DNA from: Mesoplasma entomophilum
GTDB taxonomy: Bacteria; Bacillota_I; Bacilli_A; Mycoplasmatales; Mycoplasmataceae
Assembly: GCF_002804125.1 (NCBI RefSeq)
Contig: NZ_CP024966.1
Span: 248,001-312,000, forward strand
Length of the DNA: 64,000 bases
Direction: 5' to 3'
Positions 29,578-46,041 of the stretch are shown here, in pieces; position 1 is the first letter of the stretch, and each line of letters begins with the position of its first letter. Both the position numbers and the translations under genes were made by a program. A model generated the notes under the pieces. The model saw only the letters and a list, made by a program, of their open reading frames with translations, searched no databases and was not told the origin of the DNA.

Positions 29578-30558
29578 ATGAAAAAAATAAATGAATTAAA
29601 TAACACAGTGTCTTCAACTGACTTAGTTGTTAGATTAGAAAAAGTTATTGTTTCAACAGCAACTAATGGCTCATCGTATTTAATTTTAAATTTATCAGAT
29701 AAAACTGGTAGAGTAGAAGCTAGAAAATGAACTGTAACTGATGAAGATAAACAATTATTGCAACCAAATGCTTTTGTTTTATTCAAGAATGCTGCTGTGA
29801 ACGAATTTAGGGGCGTATTGCAGCTTAAAGTAAGCGATTATAGTATTCTTAGCGAAGTTGATTTAAATCACTTTGGATTAGAGGGAAAAGACTTTTTTAT
29901 TGAAGCACCGATTAACATTGAAAAAAACTATGCGGAGTTAATGAGTATTCTTGAAAGTTTAACAAATCAAACTTATCGTGAATTAACAATTAGCTTAATT
30001 AAAAAATATGAAAAAGAATTTTTAACTTACCCAGCTGCAATGTCAATTCACCATAATGTTAAAGGCGGATTATTCTGACATAGCTTCACACTAGTTAAAA
30101 ATGCTCTAGCTTTAAAACCAAGTTATGCTTATGCTTCAATTGATTGAGAATTGTTGATTTGTGGAGCAATCCTACATGATATAGGTAAAGTAATTGAAAT
30201 TATTGATTCAACTGGAACTGATTATAGTTTACAAGGTAAAGTAATTGGACATATTAGTATTGGTAATACTGAACTTAACAAAGTTGCAGAAGAATTAAAT
30301 TTGTACAAAGATGAACAGGGAAATATAAATGAATCATTAACTTTATTGCAACATATGATTATTGCTAGTCATGGTAAAAAAGAATATGGTTCACCAACTG
30401 AACCAGTTATTATTGAAGCAATCATGTTGTCAATGTTTGATGATCTAGATGCTAAAGTATTTAAAATAAATGATGAATTAAATAAAGTTGAACATAAAAC
30501 ATGAACACCAAGAATTATTAGCGTTGATGGGAAAATGTTTTATAAACATAAAAAGTAA
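29578..30558 (+). CDS. yhaM: YhaM-type 3'-5' exoribonuclease (OB-fold plus HD domain)
   Basis: The 326-residue protein combines an N-terminal OB-fold (about 1-95, binding single-stranded nucleic acid) with an HD metal-dependent domain: HHNVKGGLFWHSFT, AILHDIGKV, and HMIIASHGKKEYGSP. This arrangement is that of YhaM, a 3'-5' exonuclease acting on RNA and single-stranded DNA ends in Firmicutes. AAGGAG lies before the ATG, 26 bases after ung. Two terminators follow. Confidence 0.93.
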
Positions 30559-30626: not shown

Positions 30627-31032
30627 ATTTTGTTATTTCATTAAACACATCTTCTAAGGTTGCATATTTAAGATTAACGTTCTTATCATGTAAGAAACCT
30701 TCATCTTCTTTAAACTTAGGTAATATATGTTCGTGATAATGGAATATAACCTGCTTAGCTATTGCTTCTTGATTAGAAATATAGTTAAAACCTTTAACAC
30801 CATTCAGTTTTGATTGTAGTATTTCAGCAACTATTTTTCTTGCTTTGCTTACTTCAACTAAATATAAATCTGGAGTTTTAGTTAAGTTTTCAGCATGTAC
30901 TTTTGGAATTACTAAAGCATGACCATCAGATACAGGATTAATGTCTAAGAACGCGTAAACATACTCATTCTCATAAATTTTATATGAAGGAATTTCTTGT
31001 TTTATAATTTTACAAAATAAACAATCATTCAT
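30625..31032 (-). CDS. hit: HIT-family nucleotide-binding protein (HinT-like)
   Basis: The 135-residue protein starts CLFCKIIKQEIPSYKIYE and carries the histidine triad as HYHEHILPKF near residue 98, so it should hydrolyse nucleoside phosphoramidates or similar compounds in the cytoplasm. Its ATG shares a base with the stop of the upstream lipoprotein gene (TAATG), so it is translationally tied to two large surface lipoproteins. Mycoplasma hominis has a comparable arrangement, the hitABL locus, where HinT interacts with the P60/P80 surface proteins. An equivalent role here is inferred. Confidence 0.94.
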   Translation of the reverse strand: MNDCLFCKIIKQEIPSYKIYENEYVYAFLDINPVSDGHALVIPKVHAENLTKTPDLYLVEVSKARKIVAEILQSKLNGVKGFNYISNQEAIAKQVIFHYHEHILPKFKEDEGFLHDKNVNLKYATLEDVFNEITK

Positions 31033-33125
31033 TAGTCTGAACTATTCCCTTCGTCTTCTTTAATATATTTAGAAATTTCATCATACAGACCTTGGAATAA
31101 AACATTATCTCCATCCATAATGTATTTAGTATAAAGTTCTTCTTTAGCTTCAGTAGTATAATCAGTATCCCCAGTCACTAAACCTTTTTCAATTTCTGAA
31201 ATTAATAATTGTTTGTTAGTAGCAGACAAGTTTTTAATATCTGAACTTGTTTTATCAGAGTTATTTCAATTAGTTGTTAATTGCGAAATACTTTTTGGAT
31301 CTGAGTTTCTAGCTAATAAAATAGAGAATAAGATTTTATCTGTGTCTTTTACTTTAGCTTGTGCATCTTCATCAAAACTAGAAGTAAAACTTGAATCAGC
31401 TTTGTTAATTGTTTCATGAATACCTAACATAGTATCATCTTTTGATTTAACTGTAATAGTAGTTTTTCTATTTTTACCTAAAGTTATTTGTCCAGATTCT
31501 TGCCCGTCTTGAACCTTTATGTAAAGATTCCCACTTTTATCTTTTATAACATCAATATTATTTGGGTTTGAATATTCCTTCATGTCATCAATGCTTTGGC
31601 TGTATTTGTCACCAAGAGGTAATCAAGTATTTTCAGGAATTGACATTTCAGCTTTACCGTTTATTGGCAGAATAGTTACATTTGTAGCGTCATAAATATC
31701 ATTTAAATATAATGGTAGAACTAAAACAATTTCACTCTCACCTTTATCACCAACAGCAAAACCTTGACCTTTTGGACCAGTTAATAAAGTTGGCTGATTA
31801 ACTGATTTAGCAGCAGTTTGAGCATCTGTTGAAATACTTAGTGAACCACTAATTGCTTCAACTCCAGTGTCGTTATTTTTAACAATACCGTTATATCCTT
31901 TTAAGCCGATTGAAAATGGATCCATTCCTAACTTAGTAGTATTAACTAATTTATCACCAGCTTCAGTTGAATTGAAATTATCTCTTAAGATTTTTATGCT
32001 GTCATCTTTTAGAATAACATTACCAGCTGCATTTGGGTCATTTAATGCTTTTTTGTATGAATTAACTCACTCAGTTGCATCTTGTGAAACATCAGCTTTG
32101 AATGATCAAATTAATTTAATATTTGAATTTACAGAAGTTGGAGCAGCTGTTAAAGAGTTTTGGAAAGATGAAACTAATTTGTTAGTAGTATTTAATCTAG
32201 CAAATGATCTTGTATAGTTAGTATTTGTTAGGTTTGTTGTGTATAAATTACTATCTAAATAAGCTAAGCTAATTAATTGAGTATAAATATCAGGTATAAT
32301 TTTTGCGTTAATATAAGATTGAAAACGATATTTCATAATCTCTTTACCAGTAAATCAATCTTGACTTTCTGATGGTTTTACTAAAAAATTGCCATTAATA
32401 TCACTAACTGAAGTTTCTTTATTTAAAACTTTTGAAATACTAGGTTTTGCAGTAAGTGCAGGTACATGTCCTTTTTTATCTGTCGAACCAACAATATAAA
32501 ATTTATTATTATTTAAAGTTTCAAAGCTTGGTATGTTTCAATTATTTTCTCCAAACTCTCCACGTACTTGTCATCTAGTCAAAGAACCACTTGTTGTTGT
32601 TTTTGAATCTTCACTATTTTCAAAATAAATTGAGTAACTTATTTTAGCATCATCTTTAAATAAATCAAAGGGGTTTAAAGAATGATTGTTTGAGTAATTA
32701 TAGTCATTAACTAAACCTTTACTATTACCAATGATAGCAGCAGTATACTCGCTAAAGAATTGATTAGTTGCTAAATCATTTAGCAATTTATTTGTAATGT
32801 TTTCTTTTACATCTTTTTCTTTAACTTTGAATGTAGAAGCTAATGTAGAACTAGTTGCTTTATACTCTTCTTCTGCAATTTTTCTATCTAATATTTTTAA
32901 AACGTCAGTAATAATTTCAGAGTCGCTTATTTTTAAGAACTTTTGTGCTTGAGAAACACTAATAAATTCATTATCTAACATTTTTAAAATTAAGGTATCA
33001 TAAATTTTTTTATCACTGAAATTCAATTTTGAAAATCTATTTACTGTAGTTGTACAAGAAACAACAACTGAAGAAGTAGTAGCAGTTAATCCGACTGCTG
33101 CTATTATAGCTAATAATTTTTTCAT
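31032..33125 (-). CDS. Large surface lipoprotein, second gene of the lipoprotein-HIT operon
   Basis: Seven or so TGA codons split this frame under the standard code; read as Trp it is 697 residues without a break. It starts MKKLLAIIAAVGL and has a lipobox ending in VVVSC with Cys24, so it should be exported and lipid-anchored on the cell surface. The rest is rich in Asn, Ser, Thr and Lys with no recognisable domain. A very strong GGAGGAG precedes the ATG, which shares its A with the upstream stop codon. By position it would correspond to P80/HitB of M. hominis, but I cannot show sequence similarity. Confidence 0.88.
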
Positions 33126-35962
33126 TATTTTACTCCTCCTTTATGTTTATTTAAACTATTGATAATGATTTCATCATTATAAAAATAATCTGATACTTTA
33201 TAAATAAAAATAGAATTTGTTTTTCCTTTAGAAATTTCTGTTATTCAAATTTTACTTGAATCAATATTTTCTAAAGGTACTTCAATTGCATAGTTAGGAA
33301 TGAATTTTCTAGAAACTTTAGTTTCTAAATCATGATATTGCTTATTGTAATTATCCTTTACAGATTCAATTCACTTGTCATTTTGATCATTAAAATTCAT
33401 TGTGAATTCTGAAATTTTGTTTTGTTGATTTTCAATAACACTTAATAATTCTGCAACTGCTTTTTTATCTACATTCTCACCGTCTGTTGCAAAAAATGAA
33501 CCAAATAATTCTTCGCCATCTTTACCTAAAATTTCACCTAAATATATTCATAATCATTGACTCAATAATCCAAAATTTTCAGATGTTGAAATTGTTGACT
33601 TGGCATCAGCTAAAATATCAAAATTGTAGAATAAATTATTTTTATCATTATCACTTGATAACATTCCTTTAGCAACAGTATTGTTAACTAAAAATCTCTC
33701 ATAATCGTTAGTAATTGAATAGTTTATTATTTTACTGTAGTCATTTCCAAAACTTGTTCCCATACCCTCAATGATTTCTTGTTTACTTATATCAGCGTTT
33801 GTTCCGGGAGTTGGAGTTGTAGCACTTTCAGTCCCATTATCAACTTTAACAATACTATTTTGAGTAGTAGGCTTATCACTTTTAATTTTAGGATTTAATA
33901 AATAAGGTACTAACTCTTTATTAGTTTTTGAAAGAAGATCATAAGCCATTGATTGTTCTTTATCTTTATTTTCAGTTTTAGTTTCTGAGTTAAATAGACT
34001 GTAACCATCAATTTTCATGAAATGTAATCCATCAGTATCAATAAAAGCAATTATTCCATCTTTATCATTTAATACTTTATATGGTTTTGGTGCTTCTGCA
34101 GAAGTATTACCTTTTGCAGAAGTTGATTCAGGAAGGTGTCTTCCTAAGTCATTAACAAGTGTGAATAATAAATTCATACCAGCTACTGCATTAGCATTAT
34201 CTTTCATCTTTTCCATTTTTCCCTTGAAGGTATCTCAATTATCTATATTAGTTGTTGATGAATCCCAATCTGTTTTTATTTGAGGTTCATATTGAGTATT
34301 TTCTGAAGTTAAAAAATCATAAACAGAATACTTAGCAAGGTTTGAATAAGTTCCAGCAGTTGTATCATAGTCTAGTGTTAATAATTTTTCATTATTTTTT
34401 GCTGTTAAAAATGATCCAATACCAGTATCAGTTTGATTTTGACCTAATTTTCAAAGGTTTCCTTTATTTGCACCTCTGTAAAATGTTTCAAAATCAGTTA
34501 ATCCAGTAGTTGAACTAGTTTCTGCATTTGAATAAATACTTGTAGCACTTTGTTTATTATTACTTCCACCAACGCTATTTGAAATATAAGCTGTATAGAA
34601 ATTGTAGAAACCTTCAAAGTATTTAATTAATTCATCAACTGTACTAGATGTGTTTACAAATTGTGCAGGACTTATTTCTTTATTAATATCAGGAGTTGAT
34701 GAACTATTAATTTTTGAAAAGTCTAAAACAATTTCAGAAGTTGCTACAGGTTTTTTTGCTTCAAAGTAATTATCAATTAAGTATCTTTGAGAATTTGATA
34801 AAATATTTATTTTTTGATTATCTTTTTTTGAATTTAATATAGGTGCAACAGAAACAATTTGTGTTTTATTAAGATTTCTAGATGATATTCCTTCGTAATT
34901 ATAAAAATCTTTATATTCATTTTTCTGATCTAATTTTATTGCAGTAACATTTGAAATGGTAAATATATCTTTCATTTCAGAAATTTTACCTAACATTTTA
35001 TTGTTAGCAAAACTTAAACTAATGCCTGATAAGAAAGTATTTCATGTTAAATTAGTAAAGAAAGTGTCATTAATATTTTCAATAAAATCAATTTTGAAAC
35101 CATCAGTTGTATCAGTTGTAGAATTAAACGCGTTTTTTCCACCTAAAACATTTATTAAATTAATAATAGAAGTTTTTTGAGATTCGCTTGTTGCTTGTTT
35201 TATTACAGGTTCATTTAAAGAAGTATTATCTATATTAACATCTGCATTTACAGATAAAAATGTTGCAAGTAATGCAGAAATTTCTGTATCATTAACTTTA
35301 ATTGTATTGTAACCATTAGATCAAGTAGAATCAGTAGCACCAAATCCTAAAGTTTTAGACAAGTTTGCATATGCTGAGTTAGTTGAATCAGTTAAAATAT
35401 AATTTGAAATTCAAGCATTTTCTAATGCAGTTTGATCACCATTAACTCAAGGAAATTGACCTTTTAAATATTTAACTCAAGCTTTTGTACCTTGTTTTTT
35501 ATTATCAAGATATTCTTTTCTTGCATTTTCCATTTCATTATTTGCACGACCATAAATAGTATTAGCAGCTTTTGATTTCTTACCATATTGAGTTTCTAAA
35601 CTTTTTGCAAACTGATTTCCATCTTCAATACCTTCATCATTTAAATATTCATTTATATAACCATTAGATTTAGTTGTTTTACCTTTGAAAACGCTATTTT
35701 CTGTGCTTGCATTTTCATAAACTGCAACTGCAAAGATGTTATAAAATTCTACTAAGAATTTTTGTGGGTCTTTACCTAAGCGACCATAAGTATCATTGTA
35801 TCAATTTAATAAATCTTCAGTAGTAATTTTAAAATCACCATCATCATTAATGAAAATATTTCCATATTTGTCATCATCATCTTTATTTGAACATGAAATT
35901 AAAACACTTGTAGCACTAGCTGTCAAAGTAAAAGCACCAATTAGTGATAGTAGTTTTTTCAT
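33125..35962 (-). CDS. Large surface lipoprotein, first gene of the lipoprotein-HIT operon
   Basis: Read with TGA as Trp, this is a 945-residue lipoprotein with signal MKKLLSLIGAFTLTASATS and lipobox VLISC (Cys24), followed by a SNKDDDDK linker. No catalytic motif or repeat is evident; the body is polar and probably forms a surface domain. The first ten residues are nearly the same as in the second lipoprotein, but the bodies look different. GGAGG lies before the ATG. It shares the transcript with the second lipoprotein and hit through 1-base overlaps. By position it may be the counterpart of P60/HitA of M. hominis. Confidence 0.87.
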
Positions 35963-36031
35963 TATATTTTCCTCCTGCGAAAATTGTTTCTGTTAACGCT
36001 TTATTTTTATATAAATATAAGCATTGATAAT

Positions 36032-38537: not shown

Positions 38538-38568
38538 TTGCATTAAAGTAAGTTTAATCTTTTACAAT
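38538..38568 (+). promoter_or_regulatory. MerR-type promoter/operator 1 (merR)
   Basis: TTGCAT (38538-38543) and TACAAT (38563-38568) are 19 bases apart, the over-long spacing typical of promoters activated by MerR proteins. The spacer holds the perfect dyad ATTAAA-GTAAG-TTTAAT (38542-38558). It lies directly upstream of the merR reading frame. Confidence 0.8.
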
Positions 38569-38597
38569 AAATATAAGTAACCTTAAAGGAGTTAAAT

Positions 38598-38954
38598 ATG
38601 GAAAAGCTATATATGAAAGATATATCAAAGGAATTAGGTGTTCCAGAATATATTTTAAGATTTTAAGATTCAAAAGGATTATTTCCATTTTTTGAACGAG
38701 ATGAAAATAATTATAGATTCATTAAAAAAGAAAAACTAGAATGGATTAGAATGGTTTTATGTTTAAAAAAATCAGGTATGTCTTTACTTAAAATAAAAGA
38801 ATATATAAATTTGGCTTTAGAAGGAAATAACACTTATTCTAAAAGACTTAAAATGATGATAGAACAAGAAAAAATTGTTAAACAAAAGATAAAAGAACTA
38901 CAAGAACAACTTGAATATATTAACTATAAGAAAAATTTATACAAAAATAATTAA
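38598..38954 (+). pseudogene. MerR-family regulator broken by a TAA at codon 23
   Basis: From the ATG behind AAAGGAG the frame gives 22 residues of a MerR helix-turn-helix (DISKELGVPEYILRF), then TAA at 38664-38666, and continues in the same frame for 96 codons to TAA. The later part matches the family: DSKGLFPFFERDENNYRFI, then WIRMVLCLKKSGMSLLKIKEY and a coiled-coil C-terminus. The family has Tyr where the TAA stands (FYD; one base from TAT). The form with Cys at full-length position 55 recalls AdhR/NmlR-type, electrophile-sensing MerR proteins. TAA is a true stop in this code, so no intact regulator would be made; a sequencing error is the alternative. Confidence 0.85.
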
Positions 38955-38962
38955 AAATGTTA

Positions 38963-38993
38963 TTGCATTAAAGTAGGTTTAATGAAATATGAT
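38963..38993 (+). promoter_or_regulatory. MerR-type promoter/operator 2 (aldo/keto reductase)
   Basis: TTGCAT (38963-38968) and TATGAT (38988-38993) are again 19 bases apart, and the spacer carries the dyad ATTAAA-GTAGG-TTTAAT (38967-38983), nearly identical to the one before merR. Confidence 0.82.
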
Positions 38994-39026: not shown

Positions 39027-40013
<987 letters not shown>

Positions 40014-44560: not shown

Positions 44561-44591
44561 TTGCCTTATAGTAGGTTGAATGTTTTAAAAT
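44561..44591 (+). promoter_or_regulatory. MerR-type promoter/operator 3 (gapN)
   Basis: TTGCCT (44561-44566) and TAAAAT (44586-44591) are 19 bases apart. The spacer contains TTATA-GTAGG-TTGAAT, matching the right half and core of the merR and aldo/keto reductase operators while the left half is degenerate. Confidence 0.72.
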
Positions 44592-44622: not shown

Positions 44623-46041
44623 ATGGAAAAATTCAAAGCAATAATTAACAATCAAGAAATAGAATCTAACTCTTGATTAGATATTATGGACCCAACAACT
44701 GATGAAGTTTATGCACAAGTTAGTGCACTATCTGCTCAAGAAATAGACTCAGCATTTAAGGCTGCTAAGGCTGCTCAAAAAAACTGAGAAGCAATTGGTA
44801 TTGAAAAAAGAATTGAGTTTTTAACTAGATGAAGAGATCTAATGTTAAAAAACGAAGAAGATTTAGCAACAACAATGATGCATGAAATTGCAAAAGCCTA
44901 TAAAGATTGTTTAACTGAAGTTCGTAGAACAGCTGAATATATAGATTTAACAATTTCAGAATATAATGATTTACAAGTTTTAACTTTTGATAAAAATTCT
45001 AAAGGTATCAACGAAGATATAATTGCTGAATACAAAAGAATAGCAAAAGGTGTTGGTGTTGGTATTTCACCATTTAACTACCCTATTAATTTAGCTGTTT
45101 CTAAATTAGCACCAGGATTATTAACTGGAAATACATTTGTATTTAAACCAGCAACTCAAGGAAGTATTGTAGGTATTAAAATTGGTCAATTAGCAATTGA
45201 AGCCGGTATACCAGCTGGTGTATTAAACGTTGTAACTGGGCGTGGAAGAGAAATTGGAGATGTTATTGTAACAAACCCATTAATTGACTTTATTTCATTT
45301 ACAGGAAGTGTACCTGTGGGTAGAAGATTAATGGAAATTTCAAGCTCAAAAGACTTAGTTTTAGAATTAGGTGGGAAAGATGCAGCTATTTTATTAGATG
45401 ATCATAACTTAGAAAACATTGCTAAAGATATAGTTGCAGGGGCATTTAGTTATTCTGGACAAAGATGTACAGCAATTAAAAGGGTTATTACTACAAATGA
45501 TATAGCAGATAAACTAACACCGTTAATTAAGGCAGAAGTTGCTAAATTAACTGTTGGATTACCAAGCGAAAATCCTATCATTACACCTATGATAGATAAA
45601 AAAAGTGCTGATTTTGTAACTGACTTAATTAATGATGCTATTAAAAAAGGAGCAACTTTGGTTTATGGTGGATCTAGAGATAAAAACTTATTGCAACCTA
45701 CATTGTTGGATAATGTTACAGTTGAGATGAATGTAGCTTGAGAGGAACCATTTGGTCCTGTGCTTCCAATTATAAGAATAAATGAAATTGAAAACATGAT
45801 TAATATTGCTAACAAATCAAATTTTGGTTTACAAACTTCAGTTTATTCAAAAGATGTAGACTTAGCTTATAAAGTTGCTGAACAATTAGAAGTTGGAACT
45901 GTAAATATTAATAGAAGAACTCAAAGAGGGCCTGATGTTTTACCATTCTTAGGAGTAAAAGACTCAGGATTTGGTGTTCAAGGAATAAAAGAAACTATTT
46001 TATCAACAACAAGATATAGAGGAATAATAATTAAAAAATAA
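44623..46041 (+). CDS. gapN: NADP-dependent non-phosphorylating glyceraldehyde-3-phosphate dehydrogenase
   Basis: GapN oxidises glyceraldehyde 3-phosphate to 3-phosphoglycerate, making NADPH without ATP. The 472-residue aldehyde dehydrogenase has Glu248 in LELGGKDAA and the catalytic Cys282 in YSGQRCTAIKRV. The GapN-type C-terminus NRRTQRGPDVLPFLGVKDSG favours GapN over other aldehyde dehydrogenases. It lies behind the third MerR-type promoter and an AAAGGAG. In an organism without an oxidative pentose pathway it would be a main NADPH source, useful to the aldo/keto reductase under the same type of promoter. Confidence 0.94.

Follow-up and report, generated by a model that had tools for sequence, protein, structure and literature searches.

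RESULTS

One stop codon interrupts the merR frame

In the insect-associated Mesoplasma entomophilum, a gene for a MerR-family regulator (merR) directly upstream of an aldo/keto reductase (AKR) gene contains a single in-frame TAA, which raises the question of whether the regulator has been lost and what such a loss would do to the promoters that it served. Its loss would be informative because Mollicutes keep very few regulators; PMC7745072 gives a count of 6 transcription factors for M. florum. We examined a window of 64,000 nucleotides (G000:C1:248001-312000) of a finished single-contig assembly (chromosome, 847,966 bp) and compared it with M. tabanidae (G001), M. chauliocola (G002), M. coleopterae (G003), M. 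florum L1 (G004), E. melaleucae (G005), M. grammopterae (G006), M. syrphidae (G021), and W. somnilux (G025). Searching the contigs for another strain of the window species turned up none, the only matches being M. grammopterae and a distant one to Simiduia.

The merR features, all on the forward strand, are as follows:
38585-38591, +, ribosome binding site AAAGGAG of merR, read directly
38598-38954, +, merR gene (NmlR/AdhR-like), interrupted at codon 23, from the reading of the frame and orthologue and family matches
38664-38666, +, in-frame TAA within the recognition-helix motif RFYD, from the reading of the frame and the orthologue alignment
38751-38954, +, 67-codon frame past the stop, starting at the next ATG and lacking the DNA-binding helix

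The frame of 118 codons reads MEKLYMKDISKELGVPEYILRF*DSKGLF..., and the TAA at codon 23 is its only lesion, so that the frame is open on either side of the stop and the ribosome binding site is intact, as the initial annotation had described. Read through the stop, the protein matches seven orthologues over its full length at 66 to 83% identity, and we therefore regard the frame as a real gene; all seven orthologues are uninterrupted under translation table 4. The stop replaces a tyrosine that is conserved in 7/7 orthologues, encoded by TAT in four and by TAC in three, and that also stands in each of the 12 remaining rows of a broader MerR alignment, which took in 12 of the 30 other places matching merR. 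Table 4 assigns no amino acid to TAA, and this codon terminates 38 of the 49 nonoverlapping window frames of at least 100 amino acids, which makes it a working stop here and agrees with the earlier statement that it is not reassigned. We also scanned the window for interruptions using frames of at least 90 amino acids from four relatives (33, 28, 29, and 48 frames), and the merR stop was the sole interruption of a conserved frame. Another stop was flagged at 35995, but the window gene there starts at 35962, leaving the stop upstream of it. As assembled, the merR gene is disrupted relative to intact orthologues in the manner of a pseudogene.

merR encodes an NmlR-like regulator with a conserved cysteine

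With an X at the stop, the translated frame matches the N-terminal MerR winged helix-turn-helix (HTH) domain (PF13411) at 39.5 bits against a cutoff of 21.6; the interrupted gene cannot make this domain whole. The closest solved relative of the protein is HI_0186 (E value of 3.5e-25). Cys55, in a CLK motif, is present in the window frame and in 7/7 orthologues, at the position characteristic of NmlR and AdhR. PMC4776306 reports that the cysteine (Cys54 of HI_0186, Cys52 of AdhR) is absolutely conserved in the NmlR clade, for which a role in sensing oxidative or carbonyl stress is proposed. The cutoff of the NmlR equivalog NF041849 of NCBIfam (175 bits) is far above the observed scores of 65.8 (an orthologue) and 62.3 bits, for which reason we use the label “NmlR-like” rather than NmlR. 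By its sequence, merR is an NmlR/AdhR-like regulator that probably senses reactive aldehydes. It resembles HI_0186 of Haemophilus influenzae and AdhR of Bacillus subtilis in its sequence and its CLK-motif cysteine, in adjoining an oxidoreductase gene, and in the dyad within a 19-bp spacer described below. It differs from that clade in that the neighbor is an AKR gene rather than adhC, the equivalog cutoff is not reached, and the window copy carries a stop codon.

The merR and AKR promoters retain identical operators

The rest of the circuit is in place:
38538-38568, +, merR promoter, -35 TTGCAT, dyad in a 19-bp spacer, -10 TACAAT
38963-38993, +, AKR promoter, -35 TTGCAT, dyad in a 19-bp spacer, -10 TATGAT
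39027-40013, +, AKR gene, intact, presumed main target

Both promoters contain TTGCATTAAAGTAnGTTTAAT with 19 bp from -35 to -10, the arrangement of a dyad operator in a 19- to 20-bp spacer by which MerR-family targets are recognized; the operators had been called intact, and they are. Across the genome, the exact 21-mer occurs only at these two promoters, with two weaker sites at 2 and 3 mismatches. The full 21-mer is specific in that these four matches are all forward with none in reverse, and the reversed-pattern control gave 0 and 1. A looser dyad search was discarded as support for the operators because sites with 3 mismatches were not enriched (36 found versus 43 expected), and a candidate further target at G000:C1:531901 was rejected since it lies inside a coding frame of the other strand. 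Dyad and 19-bp spacer are alike at both promoters in seven of eight genomes, and in M. chauliocola both sites have changed identically. In each of the eight merR-bearing genomes, counting that of the window, the AKR gene lies directly 3' of merR; E. melaleucae lacks both genes while retaining the flanking ones.

MerR proteins are described in PMC8113463 as activating suboptimal promoters with 19- to 20-bp spacers by reshaping the spacer, and nmlR mutants of H. influenzae are reported in PMC3499171 to have undetectable activity of the target enzyme. The initial annotation left it undecided whether AKR would be freed from or deprived of its regulator. Deprivation is the likelier outcome, and release the less likely one, because a promoter with a 19-bp spacer needs a MerR protein for good use. 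Derepression of AKR could nevertheless follow from the loss of merR, and we count this against our main reading. Most M. florum promoters have no clear -35 box according to PMC7745072, so spacer length may matter less there than in Escherichia coli. Among the titles and abstract openings that we searched, none described a merR/AKR regulon in Mesoplasma; the search on Mesoplasma and MerR gave only a general census, and that on Mollicutes, aldo-keto reductase, and MerR gave nothing.

An intact paralogue is associated with a second operator class

A paralogue acting on the same sites had been proposed as a substitute. A second MerR gene does exist, intact, at G000:C1:204853-205332 (start according to the longest frame), 46% identical to merR and followed by two short-chain dehydrogenase (SDR) genes. 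The operator of the first SDR gene is TTGCCCTATAGTTACTATAATG, again with a 19-bp spacer. The paralogue is like merR in that its best match is NmlR-like and an operator with a 19-bp spacer adjoins it; it shares most of the HTH with merR, and its operators share the outer letters of the dyad. It is unlike merR in being intact, in having Leu at the NmlR cysteine column, and in its operator class: all 14 merR/AKR sites of seven genomes have A9 and T17, whereas 7/7 SDR sites have T9 and A17, a count from which the two merR/AKR sites of M. chauliocola were excluded because their sequence differs. The proposal thus holds for the existence of the gene and poorly for its action at the merR/AKR sites, since a protein without that cysteine and with a different class of neighboring operator is unlikely to replace merR at AKR. 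W. somnilux lacks the paralogue and has no SDR-class site; genome G007 also lacks it, yet has two SDR-class sites at 2 mismatches, contrary to this rule.

A gene for a RamC-like lanthipeptide synthetase (G000:C1:197849-201802; L092:1850-5803) lies a few kilobases before the paralogue; its product combines RamC_N, LANC_like, and kinase domains, and an ABC transporter gene comes next. A small protein without a Pfam match (L093:10828-11220, reverse strand) has what we take to be a bacteriocin-like leader, KEIKGG.

The third promoter of interest belongs to a gapN-like gene of the window:
44561-44591, +, promoter of the gapN-like gene, hybrid operator (44561-44582), 19-bp spacer
44623-46041, +, gapN-like aldehyde dehydrogenase (PF00171, from a family match; exact substrate not settled)

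In six of seven genomes, the gapN operator combines a left half of the SDR/paralogue class with a merR-class right half; in M. chauliocola, the whole operator is of the SDR/paralogue class. Because of this hybrid or paralogue-class makeup, gapN is not clearly a target of merR, nor clearly deprived of its regulator, as had been supposed. As a long shot, the two MerR paralogues might read two related operator classes that meet at the hybrid gapN operator, as a site for a heterodimer or for competition. If this were true, the loss of merR would be a natural experiment that turned a two-input gapN promoter into a one-input promoter.

The sister species probably acquired its merR by recombination

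M. coleopterae is the sister of the window genome at AKR (96.4% nucleotide identity), the gene at 29578-30558 (94.8%), and gapN (95.6%), with tree support of 98 to 100. Its merR is instead 96.6 to 97.8% identical at the nucleotide level to those of M. florum L1 and M. grammopterae. Over about 30.5 to 39.0 kb of the window, M. coleopterae is M. florum-like, at 93 to 99% in conserved genes and 78 to 87% in two long fast-evolving genes. Approximately unbiased (AU) tests, with groups picked after the identities had been seen, rejected a clade of the window genome and M. coleopterae for merR (P = 1.3e-4) and for two genes that we presume to be a cyclo-ligase (P = 1.5e-8) and sufS-like (P = 6.4e-5). 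These sequence comparisons are most simply explained if M. coleopterae BARC 779 took up a tract of about 8.5 kb with an intact merR and a breakpoint near the AKR promoter. With a merR region that traces to an M. florum-like donor, the sister cannot be used to date the stop. The low identity of merR to M. coleopterae (74%, versus 96% for AKR) had suggested fast decay in the window, an explanation that we dropped since pairwise matrices and trees make the tract of the sister the odd one. In the window, the stretch at 31032-35962 on the reverse strand encodes two long fast-evolving proteins without a Pfam match, 64 to 71% identical to those of the four nearest relatives.

The stop may be templated and probably arose late

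The stop lies within a short repeat:
38652-38667, +, perfect 8-bp tandem repeat, ATTTTAAG twice, containing the stop

The tandem repeat is absent from the M. tabanidae orthologue. Of the possible substitutions, those that create such a repeat are rare in six neighboring genes, at 10 of 17,991, but less so in merR itself, at 10 of 1,071. That the stop completes a perfect repeat suggests strand misalignment copying the neighbor, i.e., a stop templated by the adjacent repeat copy, although the argument is post hoc.

The initial annotation took the good conservation of the frame as a sign of a recent event. The evidence supports this, with the limit that conservation is seen only against relatives at a DNA distance of about 15% or more, because the sister copy was replaced by recombination. 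The dN/dS of merR between the window and seven relatives is 0.10 to 0.18, near that of intact neighbors and within the range among the relatives (0.06 to 0.24); the value for AKR against M. coleopterae is 0.08. From a crude estimate, 0.14 of the window branch was unconstrained, with an upper bound of about 0.32, which puts the stop in the later part of the branch without proving it to be very recent.

Other measures would fit an older loss in which merR drifted unconstrained for a sizeable part of the lineage, a decidedly improbable account. The window merR has a mild excess of lineage-unique nonsynonymous changes, 15 against 4 in M. tabanidae (P = 0.019), with 15 and 14 synonymous ones, respectively, and its tree branch is 0.18 against 0.04. 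It alters 4, the stop included, of the 59 columns that do not vary among the other seven sequences; leave-one-out controls gave 0, 0, 0, 1, and 2 in five genomes, whereas the two most distant ones gave 11 and 7. The M. florum L1 lineage, however, has a ratio similar to that of the window (19 synonymous, 16 nonsynonymous), and a Fisher test against both lineages gave a P value of 0.36. The small unconstrained share and the lack of a frameshift or second stop in merR likewise speak against long drift.

DISCUSSION

The merR locus most likely holds a null allele of an NmlR-like regulator, ordinary in kind and fairly recent, that would leave AKR at a basal level and uninducible, a reading to which we assign a probability of about 0.65. 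In the intact circuit, a reactive carbonyl would act on the cysteine of MerR, which would untwist the 19-bp spacers of the merR and AKR promoters and so turn detoxification on. One recent base change, for which the repeat may have served as template, would have placed TAA in the recognition helix; translation would halt after 22 residues, no DNA-binding protein would be made, and AKR would be expressed only basally from its poorly spaced promoter.

The main rival is that the base is a sequencing or assembly error and the gene is intact in the living strain. One base is the sole lesion, and the frame and most of its constraint are retained, just as an error would leave them; PMC10884336 gives a TAC assembly with a chromosome of 847,967 bp, one base more than the one used here, so that two differing versions would exist if the strain is the same. 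We nevertheless consider an error unlikely, as the contig is finished, the compared part of the window holds no further interrupted conserved frame, and it is this base that makes the tandem repeat perfect, as would be expected of a replication event. Takeover of the merR/AKR sites by the paralogue is quite improbable: its intactness, its shared HTH, and the shared outer dyad letters would permit it, but the operator classes differ consistently at positions 9 and 17, and it has Leu in place of Cys.

A full-length protein could still be made if the TAA were read through or recoded, and the frame after the stop does keep family residues. We give this very little credence, given that TAA is a working stop here and that no internal TAA was seen in another conserved frame. 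It is hardly conceivable that translation restarts at the ATG at 38751 to give a functional C-terminal fragment, for although its 67-codon frame is open, no ribosome binding site was seen before it, and the DNA-binding helix and wing are lost.

Pseudogenes of regulators with a single nonsense mutation occur in reduced genomes. The window merR resembles them in its one lesion, intact neighbors, and kept operators and differs from them in nothing categorical. A parallel is found in E. melaleucae (C1, about 200756-201300), where a TAA and a frameshift disrupt the paralogue and the SDR gene is damaged as well, while operators can still be recognized ahead of both the SDR remnant and the gapN-like gene. 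This parallel implies that small circuits of this sort have decayed more than once in the genus and that operators outlive regulators.

If the only NmlR-like sensor with a cysteine that we found here has been lost, the locus would illustrate the order in which a minimal stress circuit decays, with the regulator going first and the operators and enzyme later. It also defines a specific regulon, comprising both operator classes and the hybrid, that is testable in M. florum L1.
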